A DNA stretch of 64,000 nucleotides from Chlorophyllum brunneum (lineage: Eukaryota; Basidiomycota; Agaricomycetes; Agaricales; Agaricaceae), in NCBI GenBank assembly GCA_963576785.1, contig OY756141.1, positions 3,038,001 through 3,102,000 on the forward strand. The letters are read 5' to 3'. The notes under the pieces were generated by a model. The model made no database searches, was not told the DNA's origin, and saw only the letters and a list, made by a program, of their open reading frames with translations. Positions 13,772-62,401 of this stretch are shown here, piece by piece. Positions within the stretch are counted from its first letter, which is position 1. Each line of letters opens with the position of its first letter. The position numbers were made by a program, and so were the translations under genes.

Positions 13772-15641
13772 TTATGTTTTTTGTGTAACCTGGCCTCCTA
13801 GGCGTGATACAATCTCAAAACATAGGACGAGCAATAGCTGGCCTATAAGGTCCATGAGTGCCGAGTGGATGGGTAAAGCATACATATCCGGATCACGGTT
13901 TTTCGACCAGAGCCAGTTCGTGAGGAAGCGCGCGATGACAAGTGAAGCAAAAACCTAACAAATTGATCAATCACATGAAGCCGTTGATGCAAGACTAAGG
14001 ACTTACAGCACAACAGAAAAACAAGATAGAGAAAGCAATGAACAGGAAAGGGACTTTTAACCATCCGATGCTACGGAGGACAGTGAGGAAGATGATTTCG
14101 ACAGGAAGTGTGATTGTGAGGAGTGTGATCATGACTAGACGTGGGCTGGGTTGGTTTGCTGGTGGTTGGGAGGACTTGGAGAGTAAAGCCGCATGGAGGG
14201 CTGTTGAGAGGCGGGAGACGAATATTGAGCCAGCAGCTCCTGGTAGACCTAAGTGAATGGTTATCGTTAGTTCGTACCGGCATTACGGGGAAAATGCTTA
14301 CCGCTAATTACGACAGCCAGTACTGCGAAACCTTCATATTTACTCACAAACATGTCTAATACGATACCAGTGCCGCTGCTTATGATCATGGCACCGAATA
14401 AGGGCGTCCAACCTTGGCTGAGAAGCGGCCGGACATATTTGTTACGGAGAGTGTAGGTGAGAGAAGTTAGGGCTGTGATGACGGCGATGATGCCGACAAC
14501 GAAGGGGAGTGGGGTGTGGAGGAAGGGTATGAGGATCGTCGAGACAAGGCCGATAAGGCAGAGAGTTACAAGATCACCGAGGCAGGAGGCGATTGCTGGG
14601 GCGATATTATCTGGTGGAAGCGGAGTTAAAATGAGGTATTTATGAGTCAATAGATGGGGATATGGCGCACCGGGGTCACGGTTGAATTTTCGACAGAGGA
14701 CAATTAGAGTACACATGAACGAACCCAGAATTAGGCCCGACAGACATGCCGCTGACATGGTCGTCGAGGCGACCATAAGTAGTCTGGGTGCAGATCTGTT
14801 AGATTTGTTATACTGGCGCTGATGAGTGCAAGAGGCGTACGTGGCCAAGTCCGTGTTACGTTTTGCCTCTGGGGCTGGATGAGGAATCGGTTTTCTTGAG
14901 TCTATGTCATATGGGAATAATAAATCACGAATGGGAAGTGCAGATGTTGAATTGGTAGATGATTGAGCGGCAACAGGGGTTCCTCGTGCTTCATGAGGGA
15001 CGATTAATCCAAGAAGGATAGCGATACAAGCGGCAACGAATGACACAACAATAGCTTGAACTTGCAATAGTGTGAGGTTGCCCACGATCATAGCTCGGCG
15101 CTGCTTGGGTTCGTCGAGCTCTCCGACATTTGCAGCAGTGCCGAGACGTGCGGATAGGTTCATCTCGAGGTTACCCTTGAGATTCAGGACTACGGGTATG
15201 ATCATAATGAGTTGGTCAACTTCTCGCATGGCCCGCCAGTGCTGTGTCGGGCGGTAACAGTGTTCAGTTGTGGGGGTTGTCTAAGCGAGGGTGGGACTCA
15301 CCGAAACTTGATCCAGCAGTTTCCCGGTGAAGAGTAAGCTCACGGTAGTGAGTAGTAATGTAGGTGCGCTCTAGTGGAATTATGATCTTAACGCATTGTA
15401 AACTTGGTATGTAGCTCACCTCTATAACGATTCCCTTGATTTGTGGCCATAGCTTTTTAGGAGAAGAGGAGTAATGTCGTGGCGACTGGTGGCCAAGCAG
15501 AGCAACGTCGCCTCTGTCGTCGGTTTCGTCGTCGTCGTCGTCTGGGGAGTGGCTGTTCTCGTCGAGGATGTCGTTCATGGCAATGACCTCGATGTCGTCG
15601 TCGAGAGAGTCCCTGGAGCGGCCTGGAGAGCTCGCGTGCAT
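13772..15641 (-). CDS. SLC41/MgtE-type divalent cation transporter
   Basis: A membrane transporter of the SLC41 family, related to bacterial MgtE Mg2+ channels. Exons 15420-15641, 15302-15370, 14302-15241, 14007-14248 and 13772-13954 give 551 aa. The N-terminal 70 residues are acidic and soluble. The protein then has hydrophobic segments separated by one longer loop, in two MgtE-like halves. The diagnostic blocks are PVVLNLKGNLEMNLSARLGT with the TAANVG that follows it, and in the second half VISGLPGAAGSIFVSRLSTA. The two halves pseudo-repeat, as in SLC41A1. Substrate is probably Mg2+, which is inference from the family. It is divergent from ADA3 with only 215 bp between the two start codons. 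Confidence 0.9.
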
Positions 15642-19975: not shown

Positions 19976-21962
19976 ATGGAATATTTCGTGCTCATCACAA
20001 ACAGCCCACATATGGAGGACAAATCTTCTCACATAACGGCCAATATCACTACGACCGTCAATGCGAATGCTGAGACACGACCCGGTGAGTCTTGCTAGTC
20101 TTTAACATCGATGGCCCCCAATCCCAAGTTCTCAATACTGCAGGTCTCGCAAAGCTCCTCAAGGCTTCTATGCCAGATGCATTCCATGACTCCTCCGCGC
20201 GATATCCACCGCCCCGGTGTCACCCCAAAACCCGCCAGGGCTATATCAAAAGAATCAACGAATGGAGATCCTCCCCTGACTCTTGTCCTCTTCTGTGGGT
20301 CGAAGGACCTGCTGGACCTGGCAAGTCAGCCATAGCCCAGACCTGTGCAGAGCACCTCGCAGAGCAGGAGAGGCTCGGCGTATCCGTGTTCCTAACAGGA
20401 GACACAACCCGAACGCCCTCTTACTTCAATTGCATATCAACTTACCACCAAGTTTAGGGCGTATGCCGACATCCTCAACCATCGCATTGAAAACGACCCG
20501 ACCCTCGTAGACAAATCGGTTCGGGAGCAGTTCTCAGAGCTCTTAGTCAAACCTCTACAGAAGCTGCAGGCCGATGGGACAGAGGCTGGAGAGCTAATCT
20601 TTATCGTCGACGGGTTGGATGAATGCGATGGGCAAGATGCACAATGTGACATCGTAGACATTGTAGCCACGTCGGTTCGGAAAGGAAGCACACGGTTTCG
20701 CTGGATTTTCGTCAGTCGTCCGGAAACCCACATTATCGCTGCCTTCAACGCTGATTATATGACTTCCTTATCACTTCATATCGAGCTACCCGTTTCTTCC
20801 GAACTCAATCACAAGATCCTATGCTTCCTCACAGACGAGTTCATCAAGATCGGGAGGAAATGTGGTTTACCTTCTACGTGGCCATCTGAAGACGACCTTC
20901 AGATCCTGGTTGACCTCTGCGCAGGCTTATTCATCTATGCGGCCACCACTATTCGCTTCGTTGGCGACCCAGATTCTTTAGGGCCCCCCGATCAGCTACG
21001 TCGTGTTCTAGCACTCCTTAAGAAGGCTGAGAGGACGAACGATCCTGAACATCCCTTAGCAGAGCTCGACCTATTCTATACGCTTATCATGCAACGCGTA
21101 CCATCTAAAATGCTTCCCACCATACAGAAGATATTATTGCTCAAGTGCCTGTCTGCCGATCACCCCGGTAGTCCCCCTAATGCAATTTTTGTTGCCAACA
21201 TCCTTCAGCTATCCGAGTCACAATTCCGTACTGCTTGTGGTGCTCTCCGTTCCGTGTTAGAAGTTGGATCATTCTCAAGCACATCTCCCCTCAAGTAATA
21301 TTCTACCACGCATCATTTATGGAGTATATTCGGGATCCAAGTCGCTCTGGAGCGTTGTCCGTCTGCTCCGGGTGTCAGGATACCCTTTGGTTGGAGCTGT
21401 TTGAGCGATTGCAAAATGCCAAGTCCATTTCAACCAGTGTGTATTTTTGTGTCTTAGTAAATGAATAATACTTATGGCTGTCGCTCTTTTTTCCCCAGAC
21501 GGGGGCTACAAGGATACCAGATGGCCTAGCGACGGAGATGTTTTCCCAGAGACCGAATGGGTGTATGGTCTTTCCGTTTGGGTGTTCCTTCACCTCGCGT
21601 CTTATCATATAAATTCATCTACGGCCGCTGCTCTAATCAACTTCCGATTCCGAACCGTTCCAATCCTTTGTACAAGATTTGCGCTCTCCCTAAATCCAGA
21701 CCAGTTAAAGGAGCGGGTACTGAGCCATCCCAATTTTTTTCAATCACTATTGACAAGCATCCCTAGGTCCCTGGTGGCCTTCGGAACAAGATCATTCGAA
21801 GGAGCTACAATCCATTTATCCAATCGCGAAGACCGGTTTATTCGATCTGGGGTAAGCCCTACGTTCTCGGACATGGAAAGAATAAAGTGTTATGCTGGAT
21901 GGTCGGCCCGGACTGGACCTACATATTGGAACCGTACCCAACACTTTCGGAAATGGCGCTAG
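19976..21962 (+). pseudogene. NACHT-domain gene with frameshifts (copy 2)
   Basis: A STAND-type NTPase of the fungal NACHT class. A possible first exon (19976-20084) joins at 20144 to GLAKLLKASMPDAF, then PPPRCHPKTRQGYI and the Walker A variant GPAGPGKSA. The frame shifts near 20400-20420; downstream the new frame reads IAYQLTTKFRAYADIL and LIFIVDGLDECDG (Walker B with acidic DE). It continues with FVSRPETH, LCAGLFIYAATTIRFVGD and a helical region to about 21290. There a second shift (one base missing near 21295) is needed to reach VIFYHASFMEYIRDP. A possible intron follows at about 21437-21498, and the last open stretch ends at 21962. Either two disabling indels or sequencing errors are present. 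The start codon is uncertain, since a second ATG in another frame begins 6 bases upstream. Confidence 0.7.
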
Positions 21963-25888: not shown

Positions 25889-26850
25889 TCAATGTACTTT
25901 GACCTCCTGCCACTCGTTGACCCACATATACCGCGAGAACGATACATAGAGCCACCGGAACCACACGAGCTGGCTTTGATGCATCCGCATTGCCTTAAGC
26001 GCCCGTAGATATTCCGGGAGTCCCGAGACGAAGACTGGTACGCCCCTGTCATTCAAGGCGGGGTCACGTTCCACCACGGGTAGGCCGGTAGTAAGCGCAG
26101 TCTCTTTTCCTGCGAAATTTATCAAGAGGTTAAAGACTCGTGCCAATACAAGATCAAACTTGGCAAGGAGGGGTGCGAGGATAGATGTGTATTTTGCGAA
26201 GAGCGGGACTGTTGTGAGGGTGTAAAGGCGGGGTGTTGGGTGATTGAGGGAGTGGAGGGATTGGATAAGATGTGCGACCCCGTAAGGAAGCGAGATGTGG
26301 TTGGGGTGAGAGGATATGCCGGCTGAGTCAAACGTCAGGATCTGGTATGGTGGTTAGATCAATCGACGCAGAAGAGTGGATAAGGAGGTTCACCGTGTCG
26401 ATACCATAGTCGATAACATAGTCGTTGATTTCTTTGCTGATGATCTTCGGATTCCAAACCGCGGTAATGTTGTCTTGCAGCTCCCTGTTCGCAACGTTGT
26501 TCAGTCAACTAGTTTGATAACCTGGGCAAAACTACAACTGACGGATGGTCGACTACCCAACGCCTCTCCTCTGGAACACCAAGGGCAGCATAGCTTCTAT
26601 GATACTCCTCTCTTCGGATTGCACCAAGGCCGTCTGCATTCCCAATTGAGAGACTCAACCCATATAGGTCGGCGTGCTTGAGCCCAAGAATGGTGGGTGC
26701 AAAAAACATGCATTCGTCATCCGGGTGAGCTGTTAGAACCAAGATACGTGAGTGACCATCCTGCGTAGTAAAGCTCCCGGTGTCGAGAGGGGAGTAGAGG
26801 AGGATGGAGAGGATGGAGAGGACGAAGATGATGAACGTTGGTCGCAACAT
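25889..26850 (-). CDS. GPI12: PIG-L/GPI12 N-acetylglucosaminyl-PI de-N-acetylase
   Basis: Catalyses the second step of GPI-anchor synthesis on the ER membrane, removing acetyl from GlcNAc-phosphatidylinositol. Exons 26543-26850, 26394-26484 and 25889-26341 encode 283 aa. The N-terminus has a single membrane anchor (residues 5-20). The metal-binding motif AHPDDECMFFAPTI follows, then SIGNADGLGAIRREE, and in the third exon ILTFDSAGISSHPNHISL, where the HPNH supplies the remaining His ligand. Length agrees with the family (about 250-300 aa). The start at MLRPTF directly precedes the anchor. Confidence 0.92.
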
Positions 26851-27139
26851 AGAACTGGAGTAATCGGCACTCCCCGCAGGTGCGATGTTGGAGTCTGTGG
26901 TTCCCAAACTCCATCCCTTGCTTATCCCTCCTCAAAATATATTGTCGACGGTATCGTCTAGGCCCATAATCTGCTCTCCAGGATCCCTTGCTTCTGCTCT
27001 CTACACCATCTGGGCCGATAGCCGAATTCGCGTCTGTCACGTCAGAACGTGATTTTTGGATGGTGTGACGGACGCGTCGCGGCGACATGGCGACCCGATT
27101 GTACTTTGTACTCAAGAAGGAACAATAAGGCAACGTTGC

Positions 27140-27430
27140 ATCCTTAGGCTAGCCAAAGAGTGTTCCTTTGGGAATTCCTCAGCCAATTCACTAGCAGGGC
27201 AGTCGAGCCGGTGCCCGCGTCATCTGCAGTACCAGGGGTGTTCTCTAAGTCTACAAGGGCGCGGAGTGGCACCACCGTACTGCATCCCACGGTATGCTCT
27301 TCTCGAAACCGTCTTCCCTTTGTTCACTCAAGTTGTCAGGCACTCCAACACAGAAACGCTTGATGAGTTGTTGATGAGCATAGCTTGCGCTAGCATCGGT
27401 CAAATACACCTGTTTTGGATAACTGAGCAC
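27140..27430 (+). pseudogene. importin-alpha armadillo-repeat relic
   Basis: One open frame preserves pieces of importin subunit alpha in family order but with gaps. LAKECSFGNSSANSLAGQSSRC resembles the ARM repeat segment ending in GNIAGDS(S/P)RCR. SLQGRGVAPP resembles the NLCRGKGVAPP hinge. FPLFTQVVRHSNTETLDELL resembles the LxQLVHSTDTETLVDACW segment, followed by SIACAS. About 30 residues expected between the first two pieces are missing, and the essential Trp/Asn array is lost. No initiation region or C-terminus is present. I read this as a short decayed copy of a gene presumably intact elsewhere. The match is from memory of the family and is moderate. Confidence 0.5.
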
Positions 27431-27710
27431 AACACAGCAAATCTTACCATCCGTACCGAGGGATCACTTGCATTTCCGAGGACCAGCTCCAAGAATGTAC
27501 CGGACAGAGAGGCGGAGCTTTCTTGAGGGCTCCAACGGCTTGCGGGGACCAGATGGTGTGCGACGTACTACCCAGCTTTCGGCAAAATCAGGCGCAACTG
27601 TCATGCAGGGTCGGAGTCACAGCATTCTACCTACAGCACCCGCTACCACTGCCGAGGCTAGCCTCCTGGTGACATCAGCGACTTGCCGAGTGGCTCAGGC
27701 GTCCTGACGG

Positions 27711-27718
27711 GACATAAA
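27711..27718 (+). promoter_or_regulatory. TATA-like box before repeat unit A
   Basis: ACATAAAAGACC lies about 60 bp before a GTAAGT donor (27773) and resembles the TATAAAAG box at 29406 that stands in the corresponding place before unit B. Confidence 0.35.
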
Positions 27719-27772
27719 AGACCTCCACCGGACCAGCGAATCCTTCAGAGCCACCCTCACTTAGATTGCTAC

Positions 27773-27889
27773 GTAAGTGCAAGACTTCTCTCGCCTCAGC
27801 CCTTTTCGTCCTAATCTCTTCCCTCCAAGCGTAGTGGCTCTCTGAGGCAGCTGCCACACACGGTTTTTCACTATGCAGAGCTATTTCAG
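27773..27889 (+). other. putative intron before repeat unit A
   Basis: Begins GTAAGT and ends in TATTTCAG nine bases before the first hairpin of unit A. Putative introns occupy the same relative place before units B, C and D. Confidence 0.4.
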
Positions 27890-27897
27890 CTTTCGTT

Positions 27898-28430
27898 GGT
27901 CACTCCAGTCGTTCTCGCATTGATTTGTTGAGGAATCCTGGTGACCGGAAGCTGCTCGCATATCAGCCTCCGTTGATATGCGATTTAGACGTTCCACTAT
28001 GACCATTTCAGTCGTTCTTGCATTAATTTGTTCAAGGAATCCTGGTGGTCGGAACGTCGGTCTCTCAAACTCCATCTCACTGACTTACGTTCGGTTTTTT
28101 TTTCTTTTTCTTTTTTATCACAGCAGCTCGCCGCTTCCATCCATCACTACAGTTGTACATCCTCAACCACACTTGGTCGAGGAAGAATAAACTGGTGATG
28201 AACAAAGTGGAAATGAATTATTGGCTGAGCTCTGCCTGCCTCTTTCATAAACGAGGTGCTACAGCCCGATTCTCTCCAATGAGGATTGAGAACAACCGCT
28301 GACACTGGGTATGATTTTGACAGGTGGACCTGGGGAAGGTTACTTTGATACCTCGTGCACCCTTGACGTGGGCCCCAGGCTTAGAATCATGCTCTCGATA
28401 TCGTTGACATGGTTAACCAATGCACGTAAA
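27898..28430 (+). ncRNA. structured repeat unit A (candidate non-coding RNA)
   Basis: First of four homologous units. Hairpin A1 (27898-27946) closes with GGTCAC/GTGACC and an inner TTCTC/GAGGAA helix around a GCATTGATTTGTT loop. Hairpin A2 (27988-28058) closes with GACGTTCC/GGAACGTC and has TTCTTG/CAAGGAA inside. Between them is a perfect 10-bp palindromic stem TCGCATATCA/TGATATGCGA. A T-rich run (28094-28117) then leads into CAGCTCGCC (28124). The 3' domain (28354-28426) is closed by CGTGCA/TGCACG and contains the invariant CCCTTGACGTGGGCC. Inside it a variable hairpin pairs AATCATG with CATGGTT. No reading frame is shared with the other units. Function unknown. Confidence 0.6.
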
Positions 28431-29400
28431 ATCTTTGTTCTTTAAAACCTTGGCTCTTCAGGAGTGGTATTATGTAGCGTTAGTTAGATGCCTCACTGCT
28501 GCGTAATTCACTTCTGTATTTCTTTTCCGTATTTTCCGATCACTCACTGGAAGAGAGAATACAGCGATCCAGCTCTCGACGGGTGCTAAATTAGGGGCAT
28601 CACGTGAAGGGCGGAGCATCGTCGCGTCCCTAACGCGTATGTGGAAGGTGACATTGACAACCACAAGGTGGTTATATCGTTCCGCCACAGCCGTTTCGTT
28701 AAGCCAGTCTCTACTACTACAACACATAGCCAAATGTAGGACACTTTGCGAGTGCAGGCCTTGACCAAGGGATGGATACCCTGTCATCCGACCTCCAACC
28801 CATCGCCCAAGTCGTCGTGAGGAGCAAGTCCAAGCGAAAGACACATGCCATTTGCACGAGGAAAGTACTAGTACTGATGGGGAATGCTACTCCAATACAT
28901 CGGGATCCTATGCGTCCAATCGCGACGGTGAGTATTGTCATTTTCCACCGCATGTTCCAGGTTCACAGAGGAACATTGGTCCTGATTTCCCGATAAGTAT
29001 AAATGACGAGACTACCGGTCATCGGCTTTGATTATTTGTAAGCGTCTAGCAACAATGCATGGTGAGTTCCACTGGACGCGTGGCCGGTCGGAGAATTAAT
29101 TTATATTCTTGGGCGCTTCCAGTTAGTCCTCCTTATTCCGAACGAGTCCTTTCTCGAAACCCCACACCCATTGAACAAACAACTAGAAGACACCTAGAGT
29201 AAGCAGTATACAAAAATTCAAAAGAAACGGATCACTGTAACTTCCAGGATTCCAGGTTTTCCTCTGTAGCACCGTCCAGTAAAACAAACATGTGGGAATC
29301 AAATAGGGCCACACCTGACCATTCTTCTGTCAAATATCCTCAGGGATAACGCCACCAATTATTCGGATTGCACAGCAAAAATGGTCCGTGCGTGATTTGG
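28431..29400. other. interval between repeat units A and B
   Basis: About 1 kb with only short frames on both strands (for example 28470-28844) and no recognisable protein motif. It must contain the promoter of the unit B-D transcript if that is transcribed separately. Confidence 0.45.
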
Positions 29401-29405
29401 TTGGA

Positions 29406-29413
29406 TATAAAAG
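29406..29413 (+). promoter_or_regulatory. TATA box before repeat units B-D
   Basis: TATAAAAG, followed directly by CCCCTCGAGATTCGGGG, which can form a small hairpin. It lies about 275 bp before the first hairpin of unit B and is the best core-promoter match in this protein-free region. Confidence 0.5.
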
Positions 29414-29552
29414 CCCCTCGAGATTCGGGGAAGGACCCCCCAACTTGTTCGCCCAACCACCCTTCTCTCCTTGGTACGCCTCTTATTCTCATTCTAGTTT
29501 CTACGACCTTTGCTCACGTCCTTATTAGATGGGACTATGATTCACCGACATC

Positions 29553-29588
29553 GATGATAGTCGGTGTGGGTGGCCACACTGGAGCGTC
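29553..29588 (+). other. leader hairpin in putative first exon
   Basis: CACCGAC and GTCGGTG form a perfect 7-bp stem around a 10-nt loop, followed by TGTGG/CCACA. It lies between the TATA box and the first putative intron of the unit B-D transcript. Confidence 0.4.
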
Positions 29589-29601
29589 GACTTCACTCGT
29601 G

Positions 29602-29650
29602 GTATGTCTTGTTCTGTATCATCTTTGCCACGTTACTGACTAGCTTTCAG
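29602..29650 (+). other. putative intron before repeat unit B
   Basis: Starts GTATGT, has a TTACTGAC branch-like sequence, and ends at CTAG (29643) or TTTCAG (29650). Confidence 0.45.
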
Positions 29651-29680
29651 CCCTTTACGTTACCCCCCTCCATGCCTCCA

Positions 29681-30120
29681 GTGATCGGCCAGTCGTTCTC
29701 GCATTAATTTGTTGAGGAATCCTGGTGATCGGAAGCGATACAGACATTCCATCATAGCCACTCCAGTCGTTCTTGCATGAACTTGTTAAGGAATCCTGGT
29801 GGCTGGGACGTCTGTGTTCTCCTTTCGCACTACCCCGCTGCAGCTCGCCACTTTCACCCTTCCCCTTTTAATTATTCTCTCAGTCGTTGTGTGTCTGATC
29901 GAGAACGAACTAGCGATGGAGTGGAAATGAACTGGCTCGAGCTCCGCCTACCGCTTCCAAATAGTGCTGCAGTCGCTCCAGATTACAACCGGAAGCACCA
30001 CTGGCACTGGAAATCGTTTGGTGGGTGGACCCGGAGAAGGTCATCAGGTACCTCGTGCACCCTTGACGTGGGCTCTGGGCTTAGGTTGTGTCCTCGGACA
30101 TAACTGACCAATGCGCGTAA
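29681..30120 (+). ncRNA. structured repeat unit B (candidate non-coding RNA)
   Basis: Hairpin B1 (about 29681-29732) uses GATC on both sides of the closing helix and TTCTC/GAGGAA inside. Hairpin B2 (29740-29815) closes with ACAGAC/GTCTGT and AGCCAC/GTGGCT, and has TTCTT/AAGGAA inside. The middle block starts at CAGCTCGCC (29841). The 3' domain (30054-30117) starts CGTGCA and ends TGCGCG, which keeps the stem through a G-U wobble. Its variable hairpin pairs GTTGTGTCC with GGACATAAC (30085-30104). A putative intron (30157-30208) separates it from unit C. Confidence 0.6.
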
Positions 30121-30156
30121 ATCCTTGTCTGCGCCGCTATTCACCTCTCAGTTATG

Positions 30157-30208
30157 GTACGTCCCAGGTTATATATTCCTGGTAAATCTTGTTGACTGGC
30201 TCTCATAG
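30157..30208 (+). other. putative intron before repeat unit C
   Basis: Starts GTACGT and ends CTCATAG, with GTTGACTGG as a possible branch region. It is in the same position relative to the hairpins as the other putative introns. Confidence 0.4.
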
Positions 30209-30247
30209 ATTTTCCCTCGCTTGCCCTTACCCTCCTCCGCATTTGGC

Positions 30248-30735
30248 AGTCACTCCAGTTGTTCTCGCATGAATTTGTAGAGGAATCCTGGTGACCGGAG
30301 CCCTTGCGTGCCCCGCCTGACATGCACATGCAACGTAGACGTTCCTCAACAGCCACTCCAGTCGTTCTCACATGAATTTGTAGAGGAATCCTGGTGGCTC
30401 GAACGTCTACCCCACACCTCCCTTACTGACCTTTTTTTCTCTTCCCATTCTTCTAGCAGCTCGCCGCTCCCGTTTCGTCGCTGCAGCCGTTCTCCCTCCA
30501 ACAGAACAAGCTGGTGATGATACAGGAAGGAAACATCGGCTCGAGCTCCGCCCGCTTCTTCCACAAACAAAGTACTGCAGCCGTTCTCTTAATGGAGGAC
30601 ATCCGCTGGTACTCGGAAATGTTTTCGGCGGGCGGACCTGGGGAAGGTCTATTGGAACCTCGTGCACCCTTGACGTGGGCCCCGGGCTTAGATCGTGTTC
30701 CGAATTTACGGACGCGATTGACCAATGCACGTGAA
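30248..30735 (+). ncRNA. structured repeat unit C (candidate non-coding RNA)
   Basis: Hairpin C1 (30248-30296) closes with GTCAC/GTGAC. Hairpin C2 (30335-30410) is the longest, closing with a perfect GTAGACGTTC/GAACGTCTAC helix continued by AGCCAC/GTGGCT. The polypyrimidine tract at 30430-30456 ends in CTAG just before CAGCTCGCC (30457), like a 3' splice site. The 3' domain is 30661-30731, closed by CGTGCA/TGCACG. Its variable hairpin pairs ATCGTGTTCCG with CGGACGCGAT (30692-30718). A minus-strand frame (30453-30725) covers the block but its frame is not kept in the other units. Confidence 0.6.
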
Positions 30736-30754
30736 TCCTATCTACTTGACTTTG

Positions 30755-30803
30755 GTATGTCCTTCATCACTCTCAACTGCCACTGCTGACTTCATTCTTA
30801 CAG
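30755..30803 (+). other. putative intron before repeat unit D
   Basis: Starts GTATGT, has CTGCTGAC as a possible branch sequence, and ends TTCTTACAG. It is the clearest of the four. Confidence 0.5.
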
Positions 30804-30835
30804 GTGTTATATTCCACCCGTTCCCGATGCTCCAC

Positions 30836-31268
30836 GGTCGCTCCAGTCGTTCTCGCATGAACTTGTTGAGGAATCCTGGTGACCTGATGCCTTCTCTTCG
30901 ACCGCTCCAGTAGTTCTTGCATTAATTTGTTAAGGAATCCTGGCAGTCGGAACTCGGTTATCTCTCCCCTTACCTCCTTATCTAGCAGCTCGCCTCTCCC
31001 ATCGCGTCATTACAGTCATTCTCCTTCAACGGTTGAGAATAATCTGGTGTTTGGACGGGAACGAACTTCGGCTTGAGCTCCGCCTGCCACTCTTCCACAT
31101 GTACGACAGTCGTCCTTCGGTTAATAGCTTCGTGAGGACACAACTGGTACAGGAAATGTCTTTTTCTGGCGGCGGACCCGGGGAAGGTTTTCGATACCTC
31201 GTGCACCCTTGACGTGGGCCCTGGGCTTAGATCGTGTCCTTTGACACGGTTGACCAATGCACGTTAAA
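30836..31268 (+). ncRNA. structured repeat unit D (candidate non-coding RNA)
   Basis: Hairpin D1 (30836-30884) closes with GGTCGC/GTGACC and TTCTC/GAGGAA. Hairpin D2 (about 30897-30952) is the weakest copy, with TTCTT/AAGGAA inside and a partly paired closing stem. The middle block starts at CAGCTCGCC (30986). The 3' domain (31200-31263) is closed by CGTGCA/TGCACG. Its variable hairpin is the shortest, ATCGTGTC/GACACGGT with a CTTT loop (31231-31250). Confidence 0.6.
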
Positions 31269-31406
31269 TTGTTTTTCTTGTTCGTCTAGCCGTTGTTATC
31301 TCCGTGAATGTACTTAGTTACACTAAATGAAAAATGAACGATATCCCTGTCTTCATCAGCTATCCGAATAATTGAGCTGTCCCCTTCAGTCAAACATAGA
31401 TACCCG

Positions 31407-32924
31407 CTACCGTTGAACTCCCCAATCAGCCCCCATCATCTCATTACTCTTTCCGTCCATCTCGTTCAATAACATATGCGCACATTCAACACCTGCTACC
31501 GGTAGTCGCAAAGTACTATTAGATCCCTCGGGTCCAGGATATGGTACATGAGTTGGCAGAATGCCCGCCTGTCGAAGCGCAGTAGCTTGATCCCACCAGA
31601 TATGTTCTATCGCGGCGAATCAACTTTGAGTGTCCTGGTAACAACGTATAAACGATACCGTACCATTATACAGACGATCACCACGGATATTCACAACCGC
31701 TATCAAAGGAAGGGAAAGTTTTTTTCCTGTTGGTGGGACGCCCGGTAACAGGTAATCGATGGTTTTATCATGAGTGCCATGATATACCAATTCGTCTACA
31801 TTGTAAAGTCAAACGAGGTTAAATGTGGGATAGTAGGGCAAATGTACCAACGATACGGTCAGCCCCGACGGTTCGTGAAACGACTTGAAGGTTCGCATCG
31901 TCGGGGTTACTAAATATAAAGTGGTCGCGGTAGAAGGCTGACAGTGCTTCGCGGCCAACTCCTCCAGTCATCTAGAGATATTTGTATCAAGCAAGGAGGC
32001 ATCATTACTATGCTTACTGTCGGAACGTGATTAACATATGGTTCTTGCTATAAAACGGCGGTAAACGTTATGTCGGTATCGCACAATGAAAAACCTCAAC
32101 ACGCACCACCATAGTCGCCATTGTTTTCGCAACACTCCGAACTTCAAATTCAAAATAACAATGTTCATCCCATATCGCCTCCAAATCAAAAAAAGGGCCT
32201 CCAAGCCACTTGCGTAGGAATACCAAAGAGCGACTATGCGCCAGAGCTGCATTTCCCGGATCATAATCTGACGTTTGTGGGAGAACGAAATGACGAGATT
32301 GGTTAGGATAGGTATGGATATTGATCAATTCCACCGCTGGTGATTTAATATTGCTCGTTTGATGGAAAAGCGCTGGAATATGAGGTGATGAGGCGGAGTC
32401 GGGGTTTATTGATGTGCCATAAGAAAGAAAACACGCAATCGGTAGATCTTCTTCCAAACTGCACAAAACGTTGTAAATTTCTGGCATATCATCATATACT
32501 AAAAGTCCTAGATGATTAGCACACAAAATCAAACATTTTTTGATGCGAATTTCAAATCCGTACCAATGATACCGAATTTGTCTCTTACATCAAGCTCGGA
32601 CGGATCAAGTGCAAGAAGACCGTCAAATGCTTGTTTCAAAGCTAAAGTCATTGAGCTGGCTTCAGGATTCGATATGGTCACAGCGACGACTGCGAATCCT
32701 TCTTCAGCCCATTTCTGTGTAGGTTCTGGATCTAGGGGTTTGGGACCTGGTCTTGGATTGAGTTTCGAAGTGTCGGGTAGGAAGAGAACGAGCCCAGGTC
32801 CGGATCCCCGACGAGTTAAGGGTGGCTGAAGAACAATGTTAGATGCTAGTTTACGGGGTGGGGCTGATGGTAAAGGGGGTGCTTGTTCGTTTTCTGATGT
32901 TGGATCGTAGGACTTTGGGGCCAT
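31407..32924 (-). CDS. dienelactone-hydrolase-like protein with C-terminal SnoaL/NTF2-like region
   Basis: Exons 32564-32924, 32107-32507, 32018-32047, 31848-31971, 31664-31795 and 31407-31606 encode 415 aa. The first 250 residues resemble the alpha/beta hydrolase fold of dienelactone hydrolases (carboxymethylenebutenolidases): LVLFLPDTSKLNPRPGPK, WAEEGFAVVAVTI, FGIIGLLVYDDMPE, and LPIACFLSYG. I did not find a clear GxCxGG nucleophile elbow, so catalysis is uncertain. The second part (TGGVGREALSAFYRDHFIF, DELVYHGTHDKTIDYLLPG, LPLIAVVNIRGDRLYNEHI) looks like the SnoaL-type NTF2 fold often fused to these proteins in basidiomycetes. It is probably cytosolic, since no signal peptide is seen at MAPKSYDP. 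The exon 1/2 intron is required to avoid a stop. Confidence 0.72.
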
Positions 32925-33143
32925 GGTTGGGGATTGCCAAGTGCGTGAATCCAAGTCACACACCTTGGCAATAATTATATACTCTTGCACGTGCGACACA
33001 GAAATGTTGTATATACGATTGGCTGATATTCGTGTCTTCATCGGAACCGTGTCCTGAGTCAAGAGTTTAAGTAATAGAATGATCTAAGGTACAATGTGCC
33101 GAATAATACATGCATAAGATGAGCCAGAGGGTGCATATATAAG

Positions 33144-34398
33144 TTATGAGACTTCCTCCATATCCTCGTCATCATCATCATCATCATAGTCTTCGTCCAA
33201 CTCCATTTTGGGTCCTGACGAATCGCCTGGCGTACCCGCGCTCGGAACGTTCTCGGCCTTGATCTACAGCCACAAATTTAACCTTTCGTGAAGAACCGCA
33301 AGTAGGGACAAGACGTACATTCTCATCCTTGAAATTCTCTTTCAACTCCCACATACCATTGTGCTCTCCACTCCGATGAAGGAATGCGATCTCAGACAAC
33401 ACTTCCTTGAGATATGCTTCGGGCTGTTGTGTCTTATCACGCAACGGCCGTAGACCCCAGTGTGGTGCATCGCGGAAATGAGAGAAAAGTTGATCGAGGA
33501 GTTGGTTTCGTGGAATACGGGCCATACGCTCGAAGCCTTTCTGGGGTTTTGGCCTTGTTTTCTGAAACGGGGGTCATTTTTAAGCTATAGTAGAAGAAGA
33601 GAACACGCACGATAAGATCACTGAATGCACCACCACTACCGACGCCCACACCACTGCTAAGCCTATTAATTCCACCTCGTCCACCGGAGACACCAGCTTC
33701 CTCAATCATTCTGATCTGTCGTTGTTTGGTGTTATACTTCAGATGGCGTTCGCGCATCTGTTTCCTGTAATTCTCGTTGAACGAAGGCCGGAGGTTGCAT
33801 TCATGTTTAATTCGGCCCGTGAGGATTGTCGTCCGTGCCCTCGAGTTAAATGGTGTGTTAGCCCCGTGGACGGATAAAGATGTGTCCTTTGGTCGCTCAG
33901 CAACAACGACTTGGTTCTCCACGGTTTCGTTAACCATGTCCAGTTCATAACAGTCCGGTTCGGCACCAGTCGTAGCGTAAGAAGTTGTGAAATTGAACGC
34001 CGGACGATTAGGCAATTGGGGAGGAGGGGGTGTTGCAGGTGCAGGATTATCATTTGGAGAGTCTTGGCTGTTGTTGGGTTCGTGGTTGGGTGGAAGAAAC
34101 AATACGAATCGTGGTTTACCGCCGTTTGGTGGTGTGTAAACACGTATTGTGGCGAGGTGGACGTCTTCTGCGTTCGCAGCTGTCCAGCGCTCCAATAAGA
34201 ATTTAGGGATCTAGGAGAGTGCAGTTGGATGAAACCATGGGTCTGTTGGTCAAAATGGGTGAAAGAGACCTTGACAAGCCATACGCGGCCGCTGCCTTGG
34301 TCTAGCATGAGGTGTTCATCGGGGTCTGGTTGAGCGTCGTCGTCGTTGCCTGTTTCGGCGTCGAAGGGCTTGCTCTCGTCGTCAATGGGTCCATCCAT
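33144..34398 (-). CDS. TFG2: TFIIF beta subunit (TFG2/RAP30)
   Basis: A general RNA polymerase II transcription factor subunit. Exons 34270-34398, 33611-34210, 33319-33561 and 33144-33263 encode 363 aa. The N-terminal dimerisation domain shows GRVWLVKIPKFLLERW across the first splice site. The central domain has an extended Pro/Asn-rich insertion, then the linker NSRARTTILTGRIKHECNLR. The C-terminal winged helix is clear: RIPRNQLLDQLFSHFRDAPH, WGLRPLRDKTQQPEAYLKEV and LSEIAFLHRSGEHNGMWELK. It ends in an acidic DEDYDDDDDDEDMEE tail encoded by a GATGAT microsatellite-like run (33160-33190). The gene is divergent from the F-box gene at 34.9 kb. Confidence 0.93.
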
Positions 34399-54735: not shown

Positions 54736-56945
54736 TTAGAACACTAACAAAGTAGCTGGTTGGCAGCTCACCTCGTAGAAAGGTAGAGGCTCCATAGGCT
54801 GTCCCACCTCCGAGGTAACTCGGTCCAACAATATCTCGTCTAGTTTGTTGCTCGGCGTGGTCCGCAAAACCGTATTCAGAGAACCCTATGGCCAGAGGAA
54901 CAGCTCAGAAGCATAGCAACAGAAGGTTGTTAAACTCACCGCCGCGTACAACCATCTCGCAAAGTCGTAGAACTGCCGGCTGTAATCCGTCACTATACGT
55001 CTGAAATCAAAGTCCTCAATCTGGGCAAGAAGGTCGCGCACACCCTCGTGGGTCATGATCGTATAATACGCATCCCAACTATCTCGGGAAACTTGTTTGA
55101 TTTTTTGGAATATTTTCGGGCCAGTTTCGGGGGAGGACCACCTCAAAGCCGACGAGATGGTATTGGTGATAGTTGGCTCTGCGCTTTCAGAAGAACCTGA
55201 GGGCCGCAAATGAGAGCGACACCACGGATGCTACTGCTGACGTACCATCAGAGACATCAAGAGTATCTATAGGCTTGCACCAGAAGAGAGACATTTTGCT
55301 GAATTCAACATAACCTTCCTGTCGACTGATGGAGAATCTTCCAGAGCGGACGGAGGAGCGGAGATAATCTTCGAATGATGCATGAACAACCTGCAATGGA
55401 ACCTCAGCGGATTTCTCGGGCGAGGGTACGTCGAGCAGCGAGTGGACCTTAGCCAAGGCATTGTAGAACTCGTGTGTAGTCAGGCGCAGGAAATTGCAAA
55501 GTGTCTGCGCGGAGTCGATGCCGATGTAGGTAAGATAGGCATAGGTTCCAAGACCCAGTATTCGTCTTTTTGTCGAGAAGACGACATCTGGTATGTCGGC
55601 AAGTATCTGAGAATAAAGTAAATCAAGTGTTTCTAGAGGATTGGCCGCGACAATTCCGTCTGCGTTCCGGATAAACGCCAGAAAGCCTACAAGGCGCCCC
55701 ATTGGGTTTCCATAACTCGAGTCACCGATATATCTCACGATCGTAGATGCAAGCACGAACAGGCCGGAGGAGGTGTCAATAACGCTTTGAAGTTGCGTTT
55801 CGGAAGGCCAAAGCGCATCCGTAACATATGGAAACCGAGCCCGGATGCCGCTGAACGAATCACGTAAATAACGCTCGACGTCGTCTCTTGTTTCTGCATC
55901 AATCACAAGCATCTCACGACCACAGCCAATAGAGAAATCCGCCCTCGAGAAGATATACTTGAGGTGCGGCTCGGGGCGACTGGAGATTAACCAGAGCAAG
56001 GGAAGATCTGCCTTCAACCGGACCACTTCACGATGATGTCACACTGTGAATCGACACCGCAGGACACATCGATTCCCCTGCATTCGTCTAGTCCATCCAA
56101 GACAACGACGAGTGGCGAATGGGATATTCGATGGCCGCGCATTTGTAAGATGGAGAGAGGTTCGACGATGAGGCTGGTCATTTGTGCGCGTGGCGTCTTC
56201 TTGAGAATCGCAGGATCATTTGCAATGCAATTTGCGAGAAGGGGTCTGTAGTCAGGAAGATAAACAGCCAGTTGATATGCGATGGTCGGCACAACCGTGC
56301 TCGGGTCGTTCCGATTATTCGGGCGAGAGAAGAAGTAGGATGCGCCGAGACGGCATTTCTTAACACAGAGCTCGGCGAATGTTTGGGCTACGGCTGATTT
56401 TCCTGTACCAGCGAAGCCGCTGAGCCATATCATCTTCCACTGGCGTTGTGGACTGTCCAGCCACTTCTCGAGCACAGAACCGATTCGCTGGCGGGTTCCA
56501 GGGTGACATAGAGGGGGTGGGTGACGGGCGCTCGAGTCAACCGCAGCGTCTTGGCAGGTATGAGGAAGGAGGCGTTCTACAGCTATCAACAGTCATATAA
56601 GTCTCCATGCATCATTCAATGCTATACATACCTGTTGTCCCAGTCATGATGGTATTGTAAGTCATCTGGTAGAATTGCGGGTTTTGCATGTCGAACATGA
56701 CAGGCTGATTAATGACAAAACCAGTGGAATTGGCGAAGAAACCACCAGAAGAATTCCCGACGCCTGCTCTTGAAGCTGTGGGAGTAATTTGAGTTAGCGC
56801 CTAGGATTAATGGACAATTTGACGCTATCCCCATACCAGTAGCCGTTCCACGCTCATCGATCCCCCCCGGCAAGGATTCACCCTGTCCGTTTTCATTAGA
56901 CGTCGATTGAGGAGGTATGAAACGTGAGAACCACTCGAGAATCAT
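54736..56945 (-). pseudogene. NACHT-domain gene with one frameshift (copy 3)
   Basis: A fungal NACHT/STAND protein. Exons read as 56837-56945, 56632-56775, 55246-56582, 54940-55196 and from 54885. The N-terminal part has a beta-rich stretch (GGFFANSTGFVINQPVMFDM). The NACHT domain follows with PPPLCHPGTRQRI, Walker A GFAGTGKSAVAQ, IAYQLAVYLPDYRPLL and Walker B LVVVLDGLDEC. At about 56014-56030 the frame breaks after QCDIIV; one base must be missing, because the next frame continues with LPLLWLISSRPEPHLKYIF. Everything after it is open: SSGLFVLASTIVRYIGD, NPLETLDLLYSQIL, PLQVVHASFEDYLRSSVRSG. The tail is helical, and its end at 54736 is uncertain because a GTGAGC at 54772 might be spliced. It is recently broken or a single sequencing error. 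Confidence 0.72.
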
Positions 56946-62329: not shown

Positions 62330-62401
62330 TTCCGATACGGGGAATCGAACCCCGAGCTACCGCGTGAAAGGCGGTAATGTTAGCCGTTACACCATATCGG
62401 A
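62330..62401 (-). tRNA. tRNA-Glu (anticodon UUC)
   Basis: The reverse strand folds as a 72-nt tRNA without intron. The acceptor stem is TCCGATA paired with TATCGGA. The anticodon arm is CCGCC-TTTCACG-CGG with anticodon TTC. The T-arm has GGGGTTCGATTCCCC, which also serves as B box. The sequence closely resembles yeast tRNA-Glu(UUC). The CCA end is not encoded, as normal in eukaryotes. Confidence 0.95.

Follow-up and report, generated by a model that had tools for sequence, protein, structure and literature searches.

A 64-kb window of the genome of the mushroom Chlorophyllum brunneum (38.9 Mb in 14 contigs) carries four related units which almost certainly give rise to a structured RNA, and the 3′ domain of each unit very probably adopts the fold of hepatitis delta virus (HDV)-like ribozymes. 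We slightly favour the reading that the array is expressed as spliced non-coding transcripts of one and three modules, each ending in a candidate self-cleaving HDV-like ribozyme. The units occupy positions 27898-28430 (unit 1), 29683-30122 (unit 2), 30248-30736 (unit 3) and 30836-31266 (unit 4) of the window. A preliminary description of this DNA had claimed their order and approximate starts, and both were recovered. Its proposal of selection on an RNA-type fold was also borne out: the hairpins and the 3′ domain covary, G-U pairs are tolerated, no reading frame is shared and Rfam gives no meaningful match.

Covarying hairpins and a pseudoknotted 3′ domain

The fold of the 3′ domain is well supported. 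RNAalifold, applied to four exon regions, returned the helices P1, P1.2, P3 and P4 before the idea of an HDV-like ribozyme arose. A fifth helix, P2, was spotted by eye as CGTGCA pairing with TGCACG and creates a pseudoknot; in unit 2 the second strand reads TGCGCG and pairing is kept. The strands follow one another as P1 (7 bp), P1.2 (4 bp), P2 (6 bp), P3 (3 bp, loop TTGACGT), P1′, P4, CCAA and P2′. Altogether 97.4% of 116 cells are paired, and five pairs changed on both sides (two in P1, three in P4). On each of four measures 1 of 500 shuffles was as high; the number of further pair types was not above the shuffles (118 of 500 at least as high). Three P4 pairs, U59-A94, U60-G93 (U-A in unit 1) and A61-U92, were included once the HDV idea had arisen; they put a C first in J4/2. 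The 3′ sequence previously called invariant, CCCTTGACGTGGG, is the core of a 24-nt block, ACCTCGTGCACCCTTGACGTGGGC, which is exact in all four units.

Two hairpins per unit, H1 and H2 (1a and 1b in unit 1, and so on), had been predicted, and eight of 48-50 nt were found. In their alignment (8 rows, 17 pairs) standard pairs fill 98.5% of 136 cells versus 92.9% in shuffles and 13 cells are double-changed; neither these two values nor the covariation score was equalled by any of 500 shuffles, which keep the relatedness of the paralogues. Controls with slid partners paired in 35-52% of cells and contained zero double changes. Five of the 17 pairs changed on both sides, a count which is not striking alone since 61 of 500 shuffles reach it, and further pair types were again not above the shuffles, all 500 of which gave at least as many. 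In 1b, 2a and 4b the second outer pair is A-U; as these belong to three separate units, this looks like a repeated change. G-U pairs, whose tolerance is a sign of RNA, occur in the stems.

The paired changes reported for the closing stem are upheld with small corrections: two of the 136 cells lack a pair, one at the outermost position of 3a and one at the fourth outer position of 4b, so that the GACC/GGTC stem is imperfect in 4b. The inner stem is always matched, as had been stated, with an inner C-G pair in five copies and U-A in three. The loop is nearly fixed, with departures from the near-constancy ascribed to it in 3b, which begins with ACAT, and in 3a and 3b, which carry TTGTA. Fixed loops with free stems suggest a protein reading the loop and the internal loop, and the related hairpins are probably protein-binding. 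Between H1 and H2 of unit 1 (27947-28000) an extra perfect hairpin, CGCATATCA/TGATATGCG, was seen by eye.

A covariance model of the eight H1/H2 hairpins (R1) was run unfiltered over positions 27700-31350 on both strands. All four of its non-training matches at E up to 2 lie on the + strand at the sites of two further hairpins, H3 and H4 (30570, E 0.011; 28142, E 0.029; 30476, E 0.78; 29971, E 1.7), and over 50,001 bases two H3/H4 sites rank first and third among eight non-training matches. Within 27700-31350 R1 missed H4 in units 1 and 4 and H3 in units 2 and 4; in unit 2 neither R1 nor inspection by eye showed a clear H3. By eye, the outer stem of H4 covaries (AGTGC/GCACT, AGTAC/GTACT, TGTAC/GTACA and, in unit 1, GGTG/CACT) with CAG/CTG kept, and a helix CCGCC../..GGCGG with compensating changes encloses H4. 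A helix of AGCTCGCC with GGC..GAGCT, which has a bulge of 1-2 nt, was likewise seen by eye only. The best description of a unit is therefore a set of at most four hairpins belonging to one class, H1 and H2 being strict and H3 and H4 relaxed copies.

Resemblance of the 3′ domain to HDV-like ribozymes

The strand order of the 3′ domain is that of HDV-like ribozymes, a class that includes the Rfam families RF00094 and RF02682, the latter being the one compared here. The nested pseudoknot order P1, P2, P3, P1′, P4, P2′ is present in all four units, and passages of PMC4908430 and PMC3774820 describe the double pseudoknot and the helices of the class. CCAA stands between P4 and P2′ in every unit, its C opening J4/2, which is where a passage of PMC10879173 places the catalytic C. 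L3 is TTGACGT throughout, with U first and G sixth; according to the cited part of PMC3386971, a U and a G five apart in L3 form a trans U-G pair. Among known members a hairpin P1.2 within J1/2 occurs, as does a P1.1 consisting of one or two pairs (a passage of PMC4908430). The predicted cut lies in all units one base (A) past the helix enclosing H4, at GGYGGA/CC (slash at the cut), and the cut-site pair (columns 7-57) is C-G in each, which a passage of PMC5640933 gives as typical of fungal HDV variants.

The array domain shares with HDV-like ribozymes the order P1-P2-P3-P3′-P1′-P4-P2′, a 7-bp P1 and a 3-bp P3 abutting P1′ (both common to the bacterial RF02682 ribozymes), a 7-nt L3 with U first and G sixth, and a J4/2 of the form CNRA. 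It differs in lacking an Rfam match, in having one P1.1 pair, in a P2 that directly abuts P3, and in adjoining conserved hairpins and intron-like stretches.

This layout was written as a strict descriptor, comprising a 7-bp P1 (no mismatch, at most two G-U), J1/2 of 1-45, P2 of 5-6 bp, P3 of 3 bp, a 7-nt L3 (U1, G6), P3′ abutting P1′, J1/4 of 0-2, P4 of at least 3 bp, CNRA and P2′. All four units matched and nothing else did on either strand of the 64 kb; versions with A, G or T at the position of the catalytic C matched nothing in the window. Forty shuffled windows gave one match in total, 200 kb of flanking fungal DNA none and 886 kb of bacterial DNA one.

Several observations weigh against the assignment. 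Because the domain was already known when the descriptor was written, its match rates overstate the surprise, and as the four units are paralogous they amount to one independent match. In a positive control RF02682 was found in 4 of 391 genomes at E≤0.001 and in 2 of 391 over the cut-off (six matches, four over cut-off); none of the four bacterial ribozymes confirmed by Rfam is matched by the strict descriptor, which gives one chance match in the 17.4 kb around them. A loosened descriptor locates two of the four bacterial ribozymes, L162 with its correct P1 and L166 with another one, and overlooks L163 and L167. It is also unspecific, with 184 matches in 100 shuffled windows, 6 in the 200 kb of fungal flanks and 41 in the 886 kb of bacterial DNA; in the window it adds one + strand match near 650 and one match each with the catalytic C changed to A or T. 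Although the array L3, UUGACGU, has 5 of 7 positions in common with the RF02682 consensus UCUaCGU, which speaks for the assignment, it agrees with the actual bacterial loops at only 4 of 7 (L162, L166, L167) or 3 of 7 (L163, without the first U). Two of the loop differences fall at presumed P1.1 positions, where the array has G opposite C. P1.1 itself is a single pair, G43-C58, present in all units and never varying, followed by U-U. P3 and P1.2 are invariant and P2 shows a single one-sided change (U-A to U-G, unit 2), which leaves these helices little or no covariation support of their own, and the relatedness kept in the shuffles inflates covariation scores. The Rfam HDV models matched neither the whole array at E up to 5 nor the unit 4 domain at E up to 10. 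Neither the loop E of the fungal variants in P4 (inspected by eye) nor their extra nucleotide between P2 and P3 was seen, and one of four splice models of the array carries a 175-codon open frame. Given that a P1.1 pair is missing, that no Rfam HDV model matches and that the test was written after the domain had been seen, the domain would be a variant and not a textbook member of the class.

These points bear on the alternative that the 3′ domain is a non-catalytic pseudoknotted RNA resembling an HDV-like ribozyme, or a fold with lost catalysis, and that the unit is an uncut multi-hairpin ribonucleoprotein (RNP) scaffold or sponge. The incomplete P1.1, the empty search with Rfam HDV models and the failure of known bacterial members in the strict descriptor speak for it, as do the invariance of the 24-nt block and the fact that all four units have retained the upstream hairpins along with the domain. 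On the other hand, the invariant bases fall in exact register on the HDV active-site strands (L3, the P1.1 position and J4/2), and the strict layout is seldom matched by chance (one match in 40 shuffled windows, none in 200 kb, one in 886 kb and one in 17 kb). We regard this alternative as unlikely and self-cleavage by the 3′ domain as likely. The ribozyme reading is directly testable, since the predicted cut and the base expected to abolish cutting are both named.

According to the cited part of PMC5640933, most known HDV-like members came from structure searches that largely ignore sequence, and the fungal HDV variant of Li and Breaker 2017 numbers 230 in 26 species. The array resembles that variant, as described there, in its fungal host and C-G cut-site pair, and is set apart from the description by having a P1.2 and by lacking both a loop E (by eye) and an additional nucleotide between P2 and P3. 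A P1.2 hairpin in J1/2 between P1 and P2 is shared with the mosquito ribozyme Agam-2; in the array P1.2 has only 4 bp and P2 6 bp, compared with 12 in P2 of Agam-2 (passage of PMC4908430). P1.2 speeds the mosquito ribozyme, which also needs an extended P2 and short linkers (same passage). R2 ribozymes, as a section of PMC3774820 reports, rigidly keep only the catalytic C and four other positions, which shows how little sequence the HDV-like class keeps.

The papers found on HDV or self-cleaving ribozymes with basidiomycetes deal with genome editing, genome mining, viruses and replicons, and none describes such an array in its title or the opening of its abstract. The preliminary statement that no described family has this layout is only partly right: the array layout was not met in the literature searched, but the 3′ domain does have the layout and key residues of HDV-like ribozymes, a described class known in fungi. 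Repeated hairpins with a fixed loop and varying stems are also found in the multi-hairpin protein-binding RNAs CsrB of bacteria and roX of flies; these have no known sequence relation to the array, in which each hairpin set precedes a ribozyme-like domain. HDV-like ribozymes occur in many genomes and, to our knowledge, few have a known cellular job.

Transcript models, proposed module release and competing readings

Positions 27400-31400 were searched for the intron pattern GTRNGT..YTNAY..YAG (46-75 nt). Six 5′ sites were found compared with 1.29 expected, a number reached by 5 of 500 shuffles, and four of the six stretches (49-62 nt) stand one ahead of each unit. We infer two putative transcripts, of which T1 would contain unit 1 and T2 the other three; TATA-like elements of weak quality lie ahead of both, the window holding 23 such AT-rich matches on its + strand. 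The 3′ flanks of units 1 and 4 have no similarity to each other at E up to 1. Of the remaining stretches, 29062-29126, immediately preceded by an ATG, lies in the spacer of 1.2 kb that separates units 1 and 2 and possibly belongs to another small gene, and 30021-30084 overlaps the ribozyme candidate of unit 2 and is probably a chance match.

The pyrimidine-rich run described earlier is present in each unit, between H2 and the block CAGCTCGCC, and its appearance is that of a 3′ splice-site tract: it ends in AG in every unit and is preceded by a CTNAY-like element in units 1, 3 and 4. It may act as an alternative 3′ splice site which would drop H1 and H2. The features of the array are listed in Table 1.

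Table 1 Positions of predicted elements of the array in the window
Feature	Position	Strand	Basis or remark
Unit 1 hairpin H1 (1a)	27898..27946	+	hairpin alignment, R1 training copy
Unit 1 hairpin H2 (1b)	28001..28050	+	hairpin alignment, R1 training copy
Unit 2 hairpin H1 (2a)	29683..29730	+	hairpin alignment
Unit 2 hairpin H2 (2b)	29756..29804	+	hairpin alignment
Unit 3 hairpin H1 (3a)	30248..30296	+	hairpin alignment
Unit 3 hairpin H2 (3b)	30351..30399	+	hairpin alignment
Unit 4 hairpin H1 (4a)	30836..30884	+	hairpin alignment
Unit 4 hairpin H2 (4b)	30900..30948	+	hairpin alignment
Unit 1 hairpin H3, same class	28142..28200	+	R1 E 0.029, by eye
Unit 1 hairpin H4	28255..28306	+	by eye (GGTG/CACT, CAG/CTG); missed by R1
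Unit 2 hairpin H4	29963..30008	+	outer stem AGTGC/GCACT; R1 29971-30008, E 1.7
Unit 3 hairpin H3, same class	30476..30519	+	R1 E 0.78, by eye
Unit 3 hairpin H4, same class	30570..30614	+	AGTAC/GTACT; R1 E 0.011
Unit 4 hairpin H3, approximate limits	31008..31052	+	by eye; missed by R1
Unit 4 hairpin H4	31100..31151	+	by eye (TGTAC/GTACA); missed by R1
Unit 1 HDV-like ribozyme candidate	28329..28426	+	predicted cut 28328/28329; predicted catalytic C 28417
Unit 2 HDV-like ribozyme candidate	30030..30117	+	predicted cut 30029/30030; predicted catalytic C 30108
Unit 3 HDV-like ribozyme candidate	30637..30731	+	predicted cut 30636/30637; predicted catalytic C 30722
Unit 4 HDV-like ribozyme candidate	31177..31263	+	predicted cut 31176/31177; predicted catalytic C 31254
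TATA-like ATAAAAG ahead of unit 1 (putative T1)	27714..27720	+	weak
TATA-like TATAAAAG ahead of unit 2 (putative T2)	29406..29413	+	weak
Intron-like stretch ahead of unit 1 (GTAAGT..CTAAT..TAG)	27773..27834	+	pattern scan
Intron-like stretch ahead of unit 2	29602..29650	+	pattern scan
Intron-like stretch, units 2-3	30157..30208	+	pattern scan
Intron-like stretch, units 3-4	30755..30803	+	pattern scan
Unit 1 pyrimidine tract and AG, 3′ splice-site-like, after CTGAC	28085..28123	+	inspection
Unit 3 branch-point-like CTGAC, pyrimidine tract, TAG	30426..30456	+	96% pyrimidine

The array would represent a small family of spliced, non-coding RNA genes of the RNA polymerase II type in an Agaricaceae mushroom, T1 carrying one module and T2 three, which are separated by short introns. 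Each module would consist of H1, H2, the pyrimidine tract with AG, H3 and H4, followed directly by the HDV-like ribozyme. Cutting during transcription, one nucleotide past the last helix (GGYGGA/CC), would leave the hairpin module with a structured, defined 3′ end bearing a 2′,3′-cyclic phosphate. In T2 the cuts would in addition set free two internal pieces that begin with a ribozyme and measure 607 and 540 nt before splicing. The odds that the ribozyme would release modules in this way appear even. The complete scheme, which would amount to a novel type of eukaryotic RNA gene, is proposed only tentatively: the long non-coding RNA would be spliced and carry several modules, each protein-binding hairpin module being freed by its own HDV-like ribozyme, so that one transcript yields several ribozyme-ended RNPs.

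Tandem units with ribozyme candidates at equivalent places, together with the HDV-like ribozymes known at the 5′ ends of retroelements (a passage of PMC3774820), could also indicate the remnant or domesticated form of a ribozyme-bearing mobile element, either retrozyme-like or the 5′ end of an element without long terminal repeats, with 540-607-nt monomers that are possibly circularised. A DNA search of the organism's own genome gave seven matches, all at the array locus. Pattern searches with up to three mismatches found six of the eight hairpins with the hairpin pattern and all four units with the block pattern, and no reverse or control match. Dispersed copies were thus found neither by DNA nor by pattern search of the 38.9-Mb genome, which strongly diverged copies could escape. 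With these four copies as the only ones found, with intron-like stretches between the units and with no reverse transcriptase domain among 10 scanned frames (94 listed), a mobile element is improbable. A ribozyme fold kept by paired changes in four copies, with conserved hairpins adjoining it at the single locus found, points to a host function and not to a mobile element.

Protein-coding exons whose similarity stems from simple tandem duplication are very improbable. Three open frames on the + strand, 110-124 codons long, run across units 2 and 3, and in the four splice models the longest ATG frames have 70, 44, 115 and 175 codons. However, two open frames that span the units gave no match in protein searches at E up to 10, and block spacing differs by 1-2 bases between units and indels are not in threes, so that, as had been noted before, no frame is common to the units. 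The 175-codon frame arises in a T2 model (30154-31212) in which acceptors before CAGCTCGCC open an ATG frame over units 3 and 4; it reads their paralogous exons in different frames and is probably due to chance.

Palindromes acting at the DNA level, as transposon ends or cruciform protein sites, are the least credible explanation: the hairpins are palindromic, but no copies were found elsewhere in the genome, all lie on one strand, G-U pairs are tolerated, and the pseudoknot of the 3′ domain with its conserved joining strands makes the cruciform DNA once offered as an alternative less likely.

Other RNA classes and surroundings of the array

An Rfam search of the array gave no meaningful match at gathering or permissive thresholds, as the absence of a known family had led one to expect; weak matches of small nucleolar RNA (snoRNA) type had E values of 4.3 and 3.4. 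The covariance models found nothing further in the 200-kb flanks, and between positions 14000 and 64000 of the window the model R2 gave no further match. In viral contigs exact-pattern scans gave 0 matches. A 15-base pattern occurs in at least 118 stretches of prokaryote genomes, in bacteria and a few archaea, which is about chance level and of no evidential value.

RNase P and MRP RNA were rejected as identities of the units, as RF00009 and RF00030 each match once, elsewhere (contigs C11 and C1). The RNase MRP RNA gene lies at C1:1181178-1181595 on the minus strand, and the RNase P RNA gene at C11:1540818-1541245 on the plus strand. Telomerase RNA was discarded likewise: the units contain no template, and one CCCTAA and one TTAGGG stand in the spacer at about 28.6 kb. 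The telomere repeat TTAGGG was seen at contig starts (4 of 14 contigs inspected). H/ACA or C/D snoRNAs were dismissed since no boxes are kept across all units, as judged by eye only. Models of U3 and of the fungal signal recognition particle RNA matched nothing, controls included, and are uninformative.

On the left the array is flanked by a frame without Pfam match (26717-27148, minus strand), and on the right by another (32529-33083, minus) and by a TFIIF-beta-like exon (33437-34210, minus); the Pfam scan took in 10 of the 94 listed frames of the window. For one protein of the window the named relatives are from Leucocoprinus (two) and Leucoagaricus, with 69-73% identity, the best of ten matches reaching 77%. 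A fragment of an NACHT/NPHP3-type NTPase (PF24883) lies at 20396-21298, and the frame 55187-56038 resembles it by eye, with no Pfam match at 1e-3. A tRNA-Glu (TTC) gene is located at 62330-62401 on the minus strand.

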